Positions 26,444-33,537 of a stretch of 33,537 bases of DNA are shown piece by piece (position 1 is the first letter of the stretch; each line of letters opens with the position of its first letter). Origin of the DNA: an uncultured Pseudomonadota bacterium (GTDB taxonomy: Bacteria; Pseudomonadota; Gammaproteobacteria; Xanthomonadales; Wenzhouxiangellaceae); NCBI GenBank assembly GCA_937138395.1, contig CAKZPB010000071.1, positions 1-33,537 on the forward strand, written 5' to 3'. Both the position numbers and the translations under genes were made by a program. The notes under the pieces were generated by a model. The model was not told the origin of the DNA. It did no database searches and was given only the letters and a program-made list of their open reading frames with translations.

Positions 26444-29400
26444 ATGGTTATGAACCAAGCCGCCGAACAGCTGACCGATCCGACTGCCTCCGAACACGCC
26501 GAAGCGCCGCTGCGTTTTGTAACGGCTGCGAGCCTGTTTGACGGCCATGATGCAGCCATCAACCTGATGCGTCGGCTGATTCAGGCCGAAGGCTGCGAGG
26601 TCGTGCACCTGGGGCACAATCGCTCGGTGGCTGACATTGTTCGCGCGGCAATCTGCGAGGATGCCGACGGTATCGCGGTCAGCTCGTATCAGGGCGGGCA
26701 CAACGAGTTCTTCAAGTACATGGTCGACATGCTGGCCGAGCAGGGGGCTGGACATATTCAGGTGTTTGGCGGCGGTGGCGGTACGATCACGCCGGACGAG
26801 ATCAAGGCCCTGGAATCGCACGGCGTTAACCGCATCTATCATCCCCAGGACGGCATGAAGATGGGTTTGACGGACATGATCAGTGATCTGGTCCAGCGCA
26901 CTGCCAAGGTGCGGCGCGCTCAGCCTGTCCTGGAAGCGGTGGATCACGCGCGTCCGGAAACGCTTGCCGCCATGCTCAGCGCGCTCGAAAACGGTCGATT
27001 AAGCGAGGCCGAACTGAAGCTGAAGCGGCGCGAATGGACAGGCGTTGGACAATCGGTGCCGGTGATTGGCTTGACTGGCACTGGCGGAGCGGGGAAATCG
27101 TCTGTCACCGACGAGTTGATCAGTCGATTTCTGCAGTATTTCCCGGAAATGAATATTGCCGTATTGGCCGTGGATCCAACGCGCCGTCGTACCGGTGGTG
27201 CGCTGCTGGGTGATCGAATTCGCATGAACACACTACGCTCCGAGCGAGTGTTCATGCGCTCGATGGCGACGCGACGCGCGCACAGGGCCACGTCGGAGGT
27301 CGTGCGGGATTGTGTTTCCCTGCTAAGAGCGTCGGAATTTGATCTGGTGATTCTGGAAACCGCCGGCATCGGCCAATCCGATTCCGATGTGGTTGATCTG
27401 GTTGATTTCCCGATTTACGTCATGACGTCCGAATACGGTGCGGCCAGTCAGCTTGAAAAGATCGACATGCTCGATTTCGCTGAACTGGTGATTTTGAACA
27501 AGTTCGATCGCCAGGGCAGCCAGGACGCGCTGCGTGATATACGCAAACAATGGCGACGCAACCGACTGGCCTTCCAGATGGCCGACGATGACACGCCGGT
27601 CTATCCAACCATTGCCAGCCAGTTCAACGATCCGGGCGTGACCTGGATGTTCATGAACCTTTGCCGGCTTCTGCGTGAAAAAGGGCCGGAACACAGCACG
27701 AATGAATCTTCACAGAGCGGAGAACGGGACGCGGGGCCCGATGCTCGAGACGCGCAGTTCGGGACAGGTCGTTGCGACTTCAGTCCCGACGTCGATCTCG
27801 ACGACAAAGCGCCAAAACCCTCCGTTCTGATCCCGGGCAAGCGCGTGCGGTACCTGGCCGAAATTGCCGAGCAGGGCCGCGGTATCAACGAGGCCATTGC
27901 TGGCTGGGCAGATGATGCCAGGCGGGCGCAGCATTATTATGAAGTCTTGCGCGAGCTGAGCCCAAACACGTTGCCCCAGCCACTGGAGCCGTTTCGGGCG
28001 AGTGTCGAATCCAACGACCCGGTTGCCGATCTGGTCACTCGCTATAACGAATTGCTCAAGTCTGTCCCGGAGGCTGCCCGCGAATTGCTGCAGCAGTGGC
28101 CGGACCTCAAGCATTCAGTCGAGTCCGAGGAATTTTCGTATCAGGTGCGCGACAAGACCATTACCGGTCCCAACTATCGGGAATCACTGTCGCGGCTGAA
28201 GATTCCAAAAATTGCCGCGCCACAGACCGACGACTGGGGCGATCTGCTGACCTTCGTGCTGAAGGAGAACCTGCCCGGGTATTACCCCTATACGGGCGGC
28301 GTTTATCCCTACCGCCGCAGCGGTGAGGACCCGATCCGGATGTTTGCCGGCGAGGGCACGCCAGAACGAACGAATCGCCGCTTTCATTACCTGTCGGCGG
28401 GCCAGGACGCGCGCCGTTTGTCGACTGCGTTTGATTCGGTCACGCTGTACGGTGAGGACCCCCACCAGCGGCCGGATATCTACGGCAAGGTCGGTAATTC
28501 CGGTGTATCGATTGCCACGCTGGATGACATGAAAAAACTGTATTCCGGTTTCGATCTGTGCGATCCGGCCACTTCCGTTTCGATGACGATCAACGGCCCG
28601 GCGCCGATGATTCTTGCCATGTACATGAATACGGCCATTGACCAGCAGGTCGAAAAGCATTTGAAACAAACCGGTGATTGGAATGCGGCGCAGAACAAAA
28701 GGGCCGAGCTGCTGGGTGATCAGCACCCCGAATATACAGGTGATATTCCGTCCGGCAGTAACGGGCTGGGGCTGGACATGCTTGGCGTCAGCGGTGACCG
28801 TCTGGTCGATGCCGATACCTATGAACGCATCAAGTCCGACACGCTCAAGGTCGTTCGCGGTACTGTCCAGGCCGATATCCTGAAAGAAGACCAGGCCCAG
28901 AACACCTGTATTTTTTCGACTGAATTCGCACTGCATATGATGGGCGATATCCAGCAGTATTTCATCGAACAGGGCGTGCGCAATTTCTACTCGGTCTCGA
29001 TCTCCGGCTACCATATTGCCGAGGCGGGCGCGAACCCGATCAGCCAGCTGGCGTTCACGCTGTCGAACGGCTTCACCATCGTCGAGTATTACCTGGCGCG
29101 TGGCATGGACATCAATGACTTTGCGCCCAATCTGTCGTTTTTCTTTTCCAACGGGATGGATCCGGAGTATTCGGTCATCGGACGCGTGGCACGTCGCATC
29201 TGGGCGCGTGCCATGCGCGAGCGCTATGGTGCAAACAAGCGATCTCAGATGATGAAGTATCACATCCAGACGTCCGGCCGCTCGCTGCACGCGCAGGAAA
29301 TCCAGTTCAACGACATCCGCACCACCCTGCAGGCGCTGTACGCGATTTTCGACAACTGCAACAGTCTGCATACCAACGCCTACGACGAAGCCATCACCAC

Positions 29401-29959
29401 GCCGACCGAAGCGTCGGTGCGCCGTGCCGTCGCCATCCAGATGATCATCAACAAGGAACTGGGCCTGAACTATTGCGAAAACCCGCTCCAGGGCAGTTTC
29501 ATCATCGACCAGCTGACCGATCTGGTTGAAGATGCGGTGTACAAGGAATTCGAGCGTATTTCCGAGCGTGGCGGCGTGCTGGGTGCCATGGATACCATGT
29601 ATCAACGCGGCAAGATCCAGGATGAGTCCATGGTGTACGAGCACAAAAAGCACGATGGCTCCCTGCCGCTGATCGGCGTCAACACGTTTCTGCCGGATGA
29701 GTCCGAGCAGCAGGAAGGCGGCGAGATTGAACTGATGCGCTCGACCGAGCACGAAAAACAGCAGCAGGTTGCTAATGTGCAGGCCTTCAAGGGGCGCAAT
29801 GCCGATCGAGGCCAGCAGGCGCTGCTGAATCTGCAGCATATCGCCCGTCAGCGCGGCAATACCTTCGCCGGCCTGATGGACGCGGTCAAGGTCTGCTCAT
29901 TGGGTCAGATCAGCCATGCACTGTACGAGGTGGGTGGCGAATATCGAAGAAACATGTGA
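26444..29959 (+). CDS. icmF: Fused isobutyryl-CoA mutase IcmF
   Basis: A 1171-residue coenzyme B12 enzyme that interconverts isobutyryl-CoA and n-butyryl-CoA. The cobalamin domain (about 22-155) contains FDGHDAA with cobalt ligand H35. A MeaB-like G-protein chaperone domain follows with P-loop GTGGAGKS (212-219), ETAGIGQSD and NKFD (352-355). The TIM-barrel mutase domain starts near 560. F634 (RMFAGEG) and Q819 (DQAQNT) stand where methylmalonyl-CoA mutase has Tyr and Arg, which argues for isobutyryl-CoA rather than methylmalonyl-CoA. It ends YRRNM as in known IcmF. It seems longer than the Cupriavidus enzyme, with extra sequence near 415-460 and 740-800. Start 26444 or 26450; no strong ribosome-binding site. 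Confidence 0.95.
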   Translation: MVMNQAAEQLTDPTASEHAEAPLRFVTAASLFDGHDAAINLMRRLIQAEGCEVVHLGHNRSVADIVRAAICEDADGIAVSSYQGGHNEFFKYMVDMLAEQGAGHIQVFGGGGGTITPDEIKALESHGVNRIYHPQDGMKMGLTDMISDLVQRTAKVRRAQPVLEAVDHARPETLAAMLSALENGRLSEAELKLKRREWTGVGQSVPVIGLTGTGGAGKSSVTDELISRFLQYFPEMNIAVLAVDPTRRRTGGALLGDRIRMNTLRSERVFMRSMATRRAHRATSEVVRDCVSLLRASEFDLVILETAGIGQSDSDVVDLVDFPIYVMTSEYGAASQLEKIDMLDFAELVILNKFDRQGSQDALRDIRKQWRRNRLAFQMADDDTPVYPTIASQFNDPGVTWMFMNLCRLLREKGPEHSTNESSQSGERDAGPDARDAQFGTGRCDFSPDVDLDDKAPKPSVLIPGKRVRYLAEIAEQGRGINEAIAGWADDARRAQHYYEVLRELSPNTLPQPLEPFRASVESNDPVADLVTRYNELLKSVPEAARELLQQWPDLKHSVESEEFSYQVRDKTITGPNYRESLSRLKIPKIAAPQTDDWGDLLTFVLKENLPGYYPYTGGVYPYRRSGEDPIRMFAGEGTPERTNRRFHYLSAGQDARRLSTAFDSVTLYGEDPHQRPDIYGKVGNSGVSIATLDDMKKLYSGFDLCDPATSVSMTINGPAPMILAMYMNTAIDQQVEKHLKQTGDWNAAQNKRAELLGDQHPEYTGDIPSGSNGLGLDMLGVSGDRLVDADTYERIKSDTLKVVRGTVQADILKEDQAQNTCIFSTEFALHMMGDIQQYFIEQGVRNFYSVSISGYHIAEAGANPISQLAFTLSNGFTIVEYYLARGMDINDFAPNLSFFFSNGMDPEYSVIGRVARRIWARAMRERYGANKRSQMMKYHIQTSGRSLHAQEIQFNDIRTTLQALYAIFDNCNSLHTNAYDEAITTPTEASVRRAVAIQMIINKELGLNYCENPLQGSFIIDQLTDLVEDAVYKEFERISERGGVLGAMDTMYQRGKIQDESMVYEHKKHDGSLPLIGVNTFLPDESEQQEGGEIELMRSTEHEKQQQVANVQAFKGRNADRGQQALLNLQHIARQRGNTFAGLMDAVKVCSLGQISHALYEVGGEYRRNM

Positions 29960-30130: not shown

Positions 30131-33100
30131 TTACTCTTTCAATGTCGAAGAATCGCGGGCCTGTTGCTTGCGCCACTGACGAGGCGACATGCCCATTTTT
30201 TTTGAAAATGCGCGTGAGAAAGTCGAGACGTCCCTGAAGCCGGTGGCATCGCCGATCGTTGAAATGCGTTCCTCGGTTTCCAAAAGCAACCGGCCCGCCT
30301 GTTCCAACCGTAGATCCCGGATCAATTCTGCTGGACTGCTATCACTGAATTCAGCGACCCGCCGATAGAGGACGCTTCGGCTCATAGCCATGGTAGCGGC
30401 AAGTTTGTCGACCGTAAATTCAGGGTCGCTCAAATTCAGAAGCACCTCAAGCCGGACCCTGTTTTCCAAATCACTCGTGTCATCTGTGCGGTAACGAGTT
30501 GACTTTGATTCGTTTTCAGATTGGTTCAAGCCTGCATTCGGTGAGGGATCCGGTTTGGTCTCGACCGAATGGGATGAGCCATCGCCAAATTCGTTGACTT
30601 GATCGACCAGCCTTCCAAGCGTTCGTGCTTTTGACTGGATTTCGCCTAGTTCCTTCTTGGAAGGCGGTGGATCCATTCGATCGAGTAAGGGCTCGATCGC
30701 TGCATCAAGCACCGCTTTTAATTCGCCGCTTACTGCCTTGAGCGCGGTTCGGTGGCGTAGGTCCACACGCTGCATTGAATCATTCAGCTTGGTAACTTGT
30801 TGAGACGCTTGATCCAGCCGCAGTGAACGTTCTTTTACTTTGCGCTCCAAAGCGCGCTGTCGATTCCTCATCAGCAGCCAGATTCCTGACAAGCCTGTCA
30901 GGGCGAGCAATAGCAATACGGTCTTTGTCGCCGGGTGCTCATGTGTCAGATAGCCCACATGAAGTTCCAGCATCGTGGCCGGGCCACGCCATTCCAGTTC
31001 TGGATAGCGGGCCTGGAACTCAATTCGCTGGGGTCCTGGGGGCAGGTTGGTCAAGGTCATTCTTCGTTGTTTACCGAGCATGAACCAATCTTCAGACCGA
31101 CCGAAACGGTAGCGAAACTCAACGTCTTCAGGCCGCGTTAAAGCGATGGCTAGAACCTCGAGCTCAAGCTGTCTTGCAGTAGCGTCCAATTCCAATGGTT
31201 CGTTGACCGTCTCTCCTTGAACACGAATCAACGGTTTCAACGTTGGCAGCGCGGTCGTTGAATCTGAATGCGTTTGAATGATCACAAGGCCCTTTTGATT
31301 AGGCAACCAGATTCGACCGTCAGCTGTATAAACGCCGGCCCGATTGACGCCACCGTTGCCCTCCAGGCTCAGCAGGCCCTGGCGTTCACCAAATTGTCTG
31401 AATACCGGCACACTGCTATGACCGCCTTCGATGTAGGTAAGCAAGTTGGTCAAATCGACCGAATAAATTCCGCTATTGGTGTTGACCCATAGTCGGTGTA
31501 GTTCGTCGACCAGCATGAAATGGACGCTGTGATGGGGCAGGCCGTCAGCGGTAGAAATACAACCAACCATATCCATATCAGAATTCAACAGACACATGCC
31601 GGCATCTTCCGTACCGACCAGAATACGGCCATTGGAGACACTCAGTAGTGACCGGATGAATTGACTCGACAAGCCAGCTTCATGGCCCAGCTGAGTGACC
31701 GGAAAGGCTGGGCCATCATGAATGGACAAGACCAGCAGTCCATCACCATTCGTACCCAGAACGAGTTCTCCATGCTGATTCTCGAGCGCCGCCCTGGCTG
31801 CGGATGGATGAATCAAGCGACGCTGCCAGGCACCGTCCGGACTGCGGCGGAAAATGCCGGCTTCCGTTCCGGCCCATACTGCGCCGGTTGAATCGCGGTG
31901 CAACAGCGGAACATCTGCTGTAGGGAGCGGAAAATCAACAGCAGGTAGGCATTTTCCCGGGCCAGAAAGTCGACATACGCCATTGTTCCCGACCAACAAG
32001 CCATCGCCGTCTGGAATCACGTCACGGGCAGCGCGGTCCAGCAGGTGTTGCCATTCACCGGTCTCCGGATCCAGCTTGGACAGTGCCACCCAGCCACCTG
32101 CCAGTATGTCGCCTTCGATTTGTGTAACCATGGTGATATTCGGATCGGGCAGGCCTGCAGGTCCTTGTCCGATAATCCTGATCATGCTGCGCTTGAGTAA
32201 TTTAAGGCCTTGACCGGGTTGTGCCATCCAGATCTGATCAAATGAATCCACAATGAAATCGAAGATCCGGTTCTTGCTTGTATAGATGAGTTCTCCATCA
32301 CGAAACAAACGATGCCCGTCGTTGATCCAGCGCCGCTCCCGGGCATCGATGCGCACGATTGTTGCAGCGCTTCGATCCGCATCAACGCTTCTGACTGCAT
32401 CAACGGGGAGTGCGCGAGCGCCTGATGTGAGCAGGGTCGTAGGGCCAACTCCTGAATCGGTAAACAAGTTGGCAATATGCCAGCCATCGGCGGTCCATGC
32501 TGCTCTGAGCAGGCGAGGCTGTGTGTTTTCCCAATTGGTCAGATGAGTCGTTTGAAGCGTCTCCGAACCTGAGGACACTTGATGCGCGGAGCGGGAAGTC
32601 AGAATCAACGTGGCTTCGTTCGGACCGCCAGCCACGCCGATAACGGGATCGGGTGTCGTGCTGATGATCTGGGTATATCCCACCAGGCCTTCATTGGTCA
32701 AGCTCATCGCTTGCACGCCGCCATTAACGCCCCCAAGCAGCAATCGCTCGTTGAATCGATCAACCGCCAATTTGGTCAGGATTGTGCTCGTGCGTGGTTG
32801 AAGTCCGCCTGAGTTACTCCATGAATACAGGCGCTGGGTTTGTTGATCAATGAACCAGATCAGTTCATTCCATACCGCGACATTGGAAATTTCTGAATGA
32901 CCGATGGGTTGATACCCGTGCGACCCTAGATACCCCAGCGCTCCGTTTTCAAAGTGAACAATGACACCGGATTCAGGGGCCGCGAATACCGCGAACGCCC
33001 GGTTGTTGGGGAAGGCCGGTTCGGTTTCCCGCGTATAGACCCGAAAGTCGAACCCCTGATGACGCACGATTCCATCGTACGTAGCCATCCATAGATAGCC

Positions 33101-33253
33101 TTGTTCATCGATCGCCAGTCGGCTGATTGTGTCGGCGGGAAGCCCATCGGCAGCAGTCCATTGCTGTACCACTCCATAGTCCGGACCCAGGCTTTCAGCC
33201 TTCAGCGTCCCGCTGATTGTCACCAAACACAGGATAAAAATCGATCGGATCAT
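30131..33253 (-). CDS. Transmembrane propeller-AraC regulator lacking kinase domain
   Basis: A 1040-residue predicted one-component sensor. A signal-like segment (1-19, MIRSIFILCLVTISGTLKA) leads to a periplasmic region with two-component-regulator propeller repeats, e.g. YLWMATYDGIVRHQG (53-67), GAVWAGTEAGIFRRS and RLWVNTNSGIYSVD. A Y_Y_Y-type beta-sandwich covers about 690-765. One membrane helix (about 778-795) is followed by a helical stretch to about 890 and a polar linker. The AraC-type double HTH spans about 930-1030, ending ATGFRDVSTFSRAFSKKMGMSPRQWRK. There is no HATPase or receiver domain. ATG 33253 is preferred over a TTG at 33334 because it starts the signal segment. Target genes and ligand unknown; glycan sensing is the usual role of such propellers. 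Confidence 0.88.
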   Translation of the reverse strand: MIRSIFILCLVTISGTLKAESLGPDYGVVQQWTAADGLPADTISRLAIDEQGYLWMATYDGIVRHQGFDFRVYTRETEPAFPNNRAFAVFAAPESGVIVHFENGALGYLGSHGYQPIGHSEISNVAVWNELIWFIDQQTQRLYSWSNSGGLQPRTSTILTKLAVDRFNERLLLGGVNGGVQAMSLTNEGLVGYTQIISTTPDPVIGVAGGPNEATLILTSRSAHQVSSGSETLQTTHLTNWENTQPRLLRAAWTADGWHIANLFTDSGVGPTTLLTSGARALPVDAVRSVDADRSAATIVRIDARERRWINDGHRLFRDGELIYTSKNRIFDFIVDSFDQIWMAQPGQGLKLLKRSMIRIIGQGPAGLPDPNITMVTQIEGDILAGGWVALSKLDPETGEWQHLLDRAARDVIPDGDGLLVGNNGVCRLSGPGKCLPAVDFPLPTADVPLLHRDSTGAVWAGTEAGIFRRSPDGAWQRRLIHPSAARAALENQHGELVLGTNGDGLLVLSIHDGPAFPVTQLGHEAGLSSQFIRSLLSVSNGRILVGTEDAGMCLLNSDMDMVGCISTADGLPHHSVHFMLVDELHRLWVNTNSGIYSVDLTNLLTYIEGGHSSVPVFRQFGERQGLLSLEGNGGVNRAGVYTADGRIWLPNQKGLVIIQTHSDSTTALPTLKPLIRVQGETVNEPLELDATARQLELEVLAIALTRPEDVEFRYRFGRSEDWFMLGKQRRMTLTNLPPGPQRIEFQARYPELEWRGPATMLELHVGYLTHEHPATKTVLLLLALTGLSGIWLLMRNRQRALERKVKERSLRLDQASQQVTKLNDSMQRVDLRHRTALKAVSGELKAVLDAAIEPLLDRMDPPPSKKELGEIQSKARTLGRLVDQVNEFGDGSSHSVETKPDPSPNAGLNQSENESKSTRYRTDDTSDLENRVRLEVLLNLSDPEFTVDKLAATMAMSRSVLYRRVAEFSDSSPAELIRDLRLEQAGRLLLETEERISTIGDATGFRDVSTFSRAFSKKMGMSPRQWRKQQARDSSTLKE

Positions 33254-33341
33254 CAGTAACCAACGCAATACTGCACAATAAGCCCGACTTCGCAATGCAT
33301 AAGATTTAGAAACACAAGTGATACAAATCGACAACTATTAA

Positions 33342-33357
33342 TGTGAAAAATCTCACA
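33342..33357. promoter_or_regulatory. Perfect CRP/Clp-type operator
   Basis: TGTGA-AAAATC-TCACA matches the CRP consensus TGTGA-N6-TCACA exactly. It is centred about 96 bp before the regulator ATG. TATCAC (minus strand, 33318-33323) could be the -10 of a promoter activated from a site near -40. It could equally serve a divergent gene beyond the window end. Confidence 0.7.
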
Positions 33358-33537
33358 ATAATTTATCAAATTGTACATTCAAATCACAATTCAACCCATT
33401 ATGTTGCATTCAATTCTGACGCCAAAAAAATGAATTGCAAAAAAATCGGGATAAAACAACAAAAATAAGGCTTCACTTTAAGTCTACCCGACAGTAATGT
33501 AACGCCGTTGAAAGAATTTGACCGAATTCAAAATTAA
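33358..33537. other. AT-rich intergenic region at window end
   Basis: 180 bp to the window end contain no recognisable gene and are much richer in A/T than the rest. CAAAAAAAT occurs twice (33423-33431 and 33438-33446). TGTAC-N7-TCACA at 33372-33388 is a degenerate second CRP-like site with the wrong spacing. A divergent gene probably starts just beyond the window. Confidence 0.5.

Follow-up and report, generated by a model that had tools for sequence, protein, structure and literature searches.

The window analysed here is a stretch of 33,537 nucleotides, the forward strand of contig CAKZPB010000071.1 from an uncultured bacterium of the Wenzhouxiangellaceae (assembly GCA_937138395.1), and near its far end it carries a gene (33253 to 30131, minus strand) whose 1040-residue product, encoded in a single open frame, we call P0001. 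We consider it likely that P0001 is a membrane-bound one-component regulator in which a dead DHp hairpin, derived from the phospho-acceptor dimerisation domain of a histidine kinase, holds two DNA-binding domains together. As part of the same explanation, and with much the same confidence, we propose that P0001 arose from a hybrid two-component system (HTCS) by in-frame loss of the catalytic HATPase (CA) domain and the receiver (REC) domain.

Domain architecture and the origin of the hairpin

An earlier note, made from the letters of this DNA without database searches, had described propeller repeats, a Y_Y_Y domain, a membrane helix and an AraC output domain with no ATPase or receiver between them, and this description was borne out. 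Pfam recognizes the propeller repeats (Reg_prop, 4.6e-15) and the DNA-binding domain (HTH_18, 1.1e-20), the solved HTCS sensors 4a2l (6e-23) and 3v9f (1.2e-18) match the sensor part, and the best Foldseek matches of the C-terminal domain are the AraC-type domains of YesN and AraT. The Y_Y_Y domain is weak in P0001 (residues 708-759, 15.2 bits, under the cut-off of 26.6) and reaches 27.8 bits in the homologue L007. A Pfam scan at E up to 10 returned no match to HisKA, HATPase_c or Response_reg. On this pattern of Pfam and PDB matches, P0001 has both ends of an HTCS, sensor and output, and lacks the phosphorelay: the propeller/Y_Y_Y sensor (with Y_Y_Y under the cut-off) and the AraC domain test positive, and the phospho-acceptor histidine, the HATPase domain and the receiver domain do not. 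A sensor, a membrane helix (recognized by eye) and a DNA-binding domain in one kinase-less chain fit a one-component transmembrane transcription regulator. An assembly or frameshift artefact is ruled out by L007, which has the same architecture at 45% identity, both frames being open. The parts of the gene are as follows, with the signal peptide and membrane topology being our own reading of the sequence.

30131..33253, minus strand: kinase-less, likely HTCS-derived regulator gene, 1040 residues plus stop; L007 is homologous over nearly the whole length (45% identity)
30950..33253, minus strand: residues 1-768, putative signal peptide, propeller repeats and Y_Y_Y-like domain (Pfam and PDB matches; read by us as a periplasmic sensor)
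30863..30931, minus strand: predicted transmembrane helix, residues 775-797 (hydrophobic stretch read by eye)
30677..30862, minus strand: residues 798-859, juxtamembrane coil and predicted DHp-derived helix 1 (alignment, profile controls, structure prediction)
30752..30754, minus strand: H834, outside the phospho-acceptor column (alignment with homologues)
30725..30727, minus strand: G843, at the position of the kinases' phospho-acceptor histidine (alignment)
30584..30658, minus strand: predicted DHp-derived helix 2, residues 866-890 (alignment, structure prediction; weakly conserved)
30485..30583, minus strand: polar linker predicted to be disordered, residues 891-923, in place of the relatives' CA and REC domains (pLDDT below 50 at 892-923; alignment)
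30164..30469, minus strand: AraC-type DNA-binding domain, residues 929-1030 (HTH_18, 1.1e-20; Foldseek)

Judged against its own family, the hairpin of P0001 is a DHp remnant, homologous to the DHp domain of kinases. The alignment of P0001 with its kinase-bearing sisters is collinear through the hairpin, and the sisters' Pfam HisKA matches cover the same segment; in L008, for example, HisKA (residues 838-895) falls on the segment aligned with the hairpin. When scored with a DHp-core model built from 11 kinase-bearing homologues, the excised P0001 segment reaches 21.1 bits and the full-length protein 14.6; the highest of 2000 shuffles scored 8.1. After removal of the three nearest homologues from the model, the excised P0001 segment still scores 11.0 and full-length L007 8.9 (best shuffle 6.3). 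With a longer model, extended over the juxtamembrane coil, P0001 scores 36 bits and L007 27. Profile-profile comparison with hhalign scores the hairpin at 47.2, whereas 200 column shuffles reach at most 19.4 and the reversed profile 14.6; the corresponding values for the DHp core alone are 27.6, 17.2 and 12.7.

Structure prediction, carried out on single chains, is in keeping with a hairpin. The earlier note had placed two helices at about residues 822-888, and AlphaFold2 with a three-row alignment does predict two, at 799-859 and 866-890, followed by a low-confidence stretch at 892-923 and then the AraC domain (block means of 83-94 over most of that domain; overall mean pLDDT of 75). From the hairpin sequence by itself the helices fall at 797-858 and 866-891, with a mean pLDDT of 79. 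Foldseek gave no match to this single-sequence model at E up to 0.001. Heading the list are CpxA kinase structures, in seven of the first eight rows, and by title 17 of the best 50 of 127 rows (E up to 10) belong to histidine-kinase or receptor DHp structures. We regard these matches as suggestive only, because all have E values of 1.6 or worse.

The earlier note had also proposed H834 as the phospho-acceptor of the hairpin. The alignment rules this out, since the acceptor column lies 9 residues further on, at G843. That column holds histidine in 10 of 11 kinase-bearing homologues and glutamine in the remaining one (L009), and in the three kinase-less sequences it holds G843 (P0001), arginine (L007) and arginine again (L039, a fragment in genome G002). 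The neighbouring positions have changed as well. The fourth residue after the acceptor is threonine in 10 of the 11 kinases (alanine in L009) and alanine, serine and alanine in the kinase-less sequences, and the fifth is proline in 10 of 11 (glutamine in L008) and valine, alanine and alanine. Thus the nearly invariant H-T-P of the kinases (positions 0, +4 and +5) has become G-A-V, R-S-A and R-A-A. The column of H834 is histidine in all three kinase-less sequences but lysine or arginine in all 11 kinase-bearing homologues, so that this residue is conserved within the kinase-less group and not outside it; on the alignment, H834 is a clade-specific residue.

Comparison of P0001 with L007 suggests where selection has acted. 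Identity is 310/684 in the propeller part, 19/36 in helix 1 and 64/102 in the helix-turn-helix (HTH) domain; it is 2/23 in the membrane helix, 13/28 in the juxtamembrane coil, 7/20 in helix 2 (residues 870-889) and 12/35, with 4 gaps, in the linker. Codon positions 1, 2 and 3 differ at 16, 7 and 31 of the 36 codons of helix 1 and at 36, 23 and 62 of the 102 of the HTH domain, and these two parts look to be under constraint. The counts are 9, 7 and 16 in helix 2 and 20, 19 and 27 in the linker.

Homologues and the probable loss of the kinase

Homologues were sought in 151 genomes (the window's own and 150 relatives, 43 of them, including its own, in the same family), with up to five candidates scored per genome. 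Among the matches listed, L007 (genome G029) is the only other near end-to-end match, covering residues 10-1036 at 45% identity in a 1041-codon frame, and Pfam finds no HisKA, HATPase or REC domain in it. The earlier note had asked whether any homologues retain HATPase or REC domains, and such kinase-bearing sisters were found. L008, L009 and L010 match P0001 at 35-36% identity from residue 8 or 11 to residues 901, 889 and 886-888, respectively, and at each locus a second tblastn alignment restarts in the HTH region after an insert. By Pfam, each of the three carries HisKA, HATPase_c and HTH_18, and Response_reg is missing only from L009. The L009 protein (L043, 8273-11884) is a half-eroded HTCS, with glutamine at the phospho-acceptor position, no receiver and a retained HATPase domain. 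The third kinase-less sequence, the fragment L039, comes from the window's genus and matches residues 766-853 at 49% identity. At about 1797-2447 of L039, fragments of the regulator and of a DUF11-like gene lie adjacent on opposite strands, as if one deletion had taken both 5' ends, and we read the surrounding frames as dapB-, dnaJ- and dnaK-like.

A tree of the sensor part was built from 22 proteins and drawn from its midpoint. It comprises P0001, L007, L008-L011, L012/L013, L020, other kinase-bearing HTCSs and six sensor-GGDEF proteins. P0001 and L007 are sisters (100/100) and stand next to L008-L011 (six-row fork, 100/99) and then to the kinase-bearing L012/L013 (eight-row fork, 100/100); the contig of L011 ends before any output domain. 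Because the tree sets the kinase-less pair beside kinase-bearing HTCSs, the simplest reading is that the kinase was probably lost on the branch leading to P0001 and L007. L020 (L074, 5492-8473, genome G010) is a 994-codon frame with a propeller sensor and an AraC domain in which no HisKA, HATPase, REC, DHp or Y_Y_Y was detected. It is placed elsewhere in the tree, by the kinase-bearing L015/L016 (91/95), and would likely represent a second, separate loss of the kinase, although this is not firmly supported.

Other candidates proved to be different proteins. Ten possible further kinase-less HTCSs were rejected when DHp, CA, REC and HTH domains were found in every one, and six homologues of the sensor that lack kinase domains, each about 1000 codons long, were all GGDEF proteins rather than kinase-less regulators. 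The latter join a propeller/Y_Y_Y sensor to GGDEF in L002 (172-3147, the window's own genome), L021, L026, L028, L030 and L034. Among four further loci, L074 holds the kinase-less L020, L076 and L077 are complete in the four cytoplasmic domains, and L075, truncated at a contig start, shows REC and HTH only. A scan of the genome's contigs gave three distant loci only. Wider searches covered 398 genomes of the order (up to five or two candidates scored per genome) and 369 genomes in each class search under the same limit, and among the matches listed no other runs continuously through the hairpin and the HTH domain in a frame of P0001 size. Three listed order matches do run from the hairpin or linker into the HTH domain, in frames of 299 (L075), 1476 and 1543 codons. 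Because of these matches, and because few candidates were scored per genome, we treat this result as a weak negative.

The divergent secreted gene and surrounding sequence

Upstream of the P0001 start codon the window's contig runs on for 284 bases, and this stretch forms one further feature:

33254..33537, no strand: intergenic region upstream of the P0001 gene; its last 15 bases are the first 15 of contig C58

The shared bases (window 33523-33537; L128 1-15) have two matches in the genome, both at contig ends, and a control gave none; the two contigs probably adjoin. C58 begins with AAGGGGAG, which resembles a ribosome site, followed by the ATG of a 1972-residue DUF11/DUF7507/GEVED protein reading away from P0001. 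A divergent frame of the DUF11/DUF7933 type is found at all eight loci examined of the P0001 branch, the window being counted by the contig overlap. These neighbours were identified by Pfam DUF11, DUF7507 or DUF7933 at L007, L009, L010 and L011, by Pfam DUF11 at L012, and by tblastn to each other's neighbours at L008 and L013; the frames at L007, L009 and L011 end at contig ends (943, 579 and 478 codons), and that of L011 shows DUF7933 only. The broken frame beside the G002 fragment is also DUF11-like. At six other HTCS loci, three regulators stand divergent to frames of 2394-2709 codons; the other three do not. This arrangement suggests that the divergent DUF11-type secreted protein is the probable target of the regulator, and that the lineage lost its relay but retained sensor input and target.

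The possibility that a kinase or receiver is encoded next door is ruled out, as the neighbours are a gene of the methylmalonyl-CoA-mutase family and, by contig overlap, the giant secreted gene. The former (window 26444-29959) fuses B12-binding, MeaB-like and methylmalonyl-CoA mutase domains, is convergent with the regulator gene and encodes a protein that we take to be IcmF-like. Antisense inside it lies a 551-codon frame (28184-29839, minus strand) with no Pfam match that is probably a shadow frame. Positions 280-26227 hold a housekeeping block of secE, nusG, rplA, rpoB and rpoC, then trmD, htpG and nusA-infB-rbfA-truB. Short repeats occur in the intergenic region upstream of P0001, possibly by chance. 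Elsewhere in the order, L131, L132 and L135 are the HTCSs divergent to the frames of 2394-2709 codons, which are truncated by the limits of the stretches retrieved; one of the two neighbours scanned has a legume-lectin domain and the other lactonase-propeller and DUF11 domains.

Proposed signalling without a kinase

In the mechanism that we favour, the sensor would lie in the periplasm and bind an extracellular ligand, and the hairpin would still dimerise and so keep two AraC domains together at the membrane. The ligand would alter the dimer, and with it the binding of the paired AraC domains to the divergent promoter of the giant secreted DUF11-type gene and their control of it, with no phosphate being moved. 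The earlier note had suggested that a signal passes from periplasm to DNA by a conformational change without phosphotransfer. The absence of the usual phosphotransfer holds, but a rigid conformational relay is doubtful because about 32 residues of the linker are predicted to be disordered, and these are poorly conserved. We therefore think it more likely that the signal would act through dimer state or tethered local concentration. That the dead hairpin is itself an active, phosphate-free transmitter of the signal is a tentative proposal, and we lean somewhat against it.

Several observations count against the explanation as a whole. Pfam HisKA has no match in P0001 (E up to 10) or L007 (E up to 0.001), a PDB profile search with the hairpin yielded three matches at E up to 10 of which none is a kinase, the structural matches to DHp domains of kinases lack significance (E 1.6 or worse), and the DHp-core model without the three nearest homologues leaves full-length P0001 with just 4.5 bits, less than the top-scoring shuffle reaches (6.3). 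Conservation in helix 2 barely exceeds that in the linker (7/20 versus 12/35), an argument against an intact four-helix bundle. The tree of the HTH domain (18 rows) is largely unresolved, and for this reason an exchange of the HTH domain might replace a simple internal deletion in the history of the gene. The kinase-less members seen amount to two intact proteins and one broken fragment, and the proposed mechanism names nothing that would hold the AraC domains off DNA without ligand.

The weak or missing profile matches would be explained if the hairpin were an unrelated coiled coil that resembles DHp by chance, but we give this very little credence. Pfam HisKA and the PDB profile search show nothing, so only profiles built from close family members reveal the DHp remnant. 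However, the collinear sisters with HisKA on the same segment, the hhalign comparison and the remaining shuffled and reversed controls uphold the DHp likeness that the earlier note had read from the helix pattern, and CpxA, although without significance, leads the Foldseek rows. An equally remote prospect is that another kinase phosphorylates P0001, for example on the histidine at 834 that all three kinase-less sequences share; this residue lies outside the acceptor column, its own column is lysine or arginine in every kinase, and no REC domain is left as a substrate.

A more serious contender, still unlikely in our estimation, is that the hairpin is a passive leftover and that the protein, tethered to the membrane, activates or represses constitutively and has ceased to respond to a ligand. 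The predicted disorder of the linker, the lack of a REC domain to hold the DNA-binding domain off, the low identity to L007 in the membrane helix (2/23) and helix 2 (7/20), and the absence of a detectable DHp from the other kinase-less protein, L020, are all in its favour. Against it, 310 of 684 residues are kept in the propeller part and 19 of 36 in helix 1. Signal-induced cleavage of the membrane protein, releasing the AraC part, seems improbable; the long disordered linker could offer a cleavage site, but nothing specific was found, neither a protease gene nor a cleavage site having been searched for.

The question of what keeps tethered AraC domains off DNA has been addressed for HTCSs by Gao, Wu and Stock (PMC11253607), who argue that AraC domains tethered to a kinase dimer must be restrained by a receiver clamp that carries an S/CHIP motif. 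In an alignment read by eye, the S/C-H pair before the conserved proline is missing from all nine receivers of the relatives; a regular-expression search for the motif matched 1 of 13 sequences and was too narrow, and the reading by eye was used instead. Because the relatives' receivers are without this pair, the P0001 lineage may not have depended on the clamp.

Kinase-less HTCS-type regulators are already known in outline. As PMC3243724 describes them, HTCSs of the Bacteroides type have a propeller and Y_Y_Y sensor, a membrane helix and an AraC output; P0001 is alike in all three and differs in the absence of HATPase, REC and the phospho-acceptor histidine. PMC7564644 presents TfoS of Vibrio as a transmembrane regulator of the AraC family that is reported to miss a two-component signature domain and whose periplasmic sensor is structurally related to HTCS proteins. 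By that description both TfoS and P0001 would set an HTCS-related sensor on a kinase-less transmembrane regulator, and TfoS, unlike P0001, is described there in chitin use and natural competence. No TfoS was recognized among the matches listed of the two class searches (up to five and up to two candidates per genome), in which no TfoS sequence was used. For transmembrane transcription regulators (TTRs) more broadly, PMC10269533 raises descent from two-component systems, with Rsp of Neisseria combining a PilS receptor and a PilR DNA-binding domain. Membrane-anchored one-component regulation is common to these proteins and P0001, although P0001 differs in having kept the hairpin through which the kinase dimerises and in having, within its own bacterial family, sisters that carry the kinase. 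The kinase-less L020 shares the propeller and AraC domains of P0001 but has no detectable DHp or Y_Y_Y and stands elsewhere in the sensor tree, and the diguanylate cyclases of the same order carry the same kind of propeller/Y_Y_Y sensor with an enzymatic GGDEF output (six of six scanned). ChiS of Vibrio, unlike P0001, keeps its kinase and receiver domains. Judged by title and abstract opening, none of the papers listed from the open-access literature (subscription literature being mostly uncovered) deals with an HTCS-derived regulator that has kept a histidine-less DHp domain.

In P0001 the receiver and kinase are gone, and the sensor, the hairpin and the type of target remain, beside kinase-bearing sisters (L008 and L010) and the half-eroded L009. 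With this series of matched proteins one can test how two-component systems give rise to one-component membrane regulators, as well as whether a DHp domain can signal without phosphate. If the hairpin does act as a phosphate-free transmitter, a like sensor and target type would be served by a full phosphorelay in the sisters and by a bare hairpin here, and the two would form a natural matched pair in which to ask what a phosphorelay contributes.

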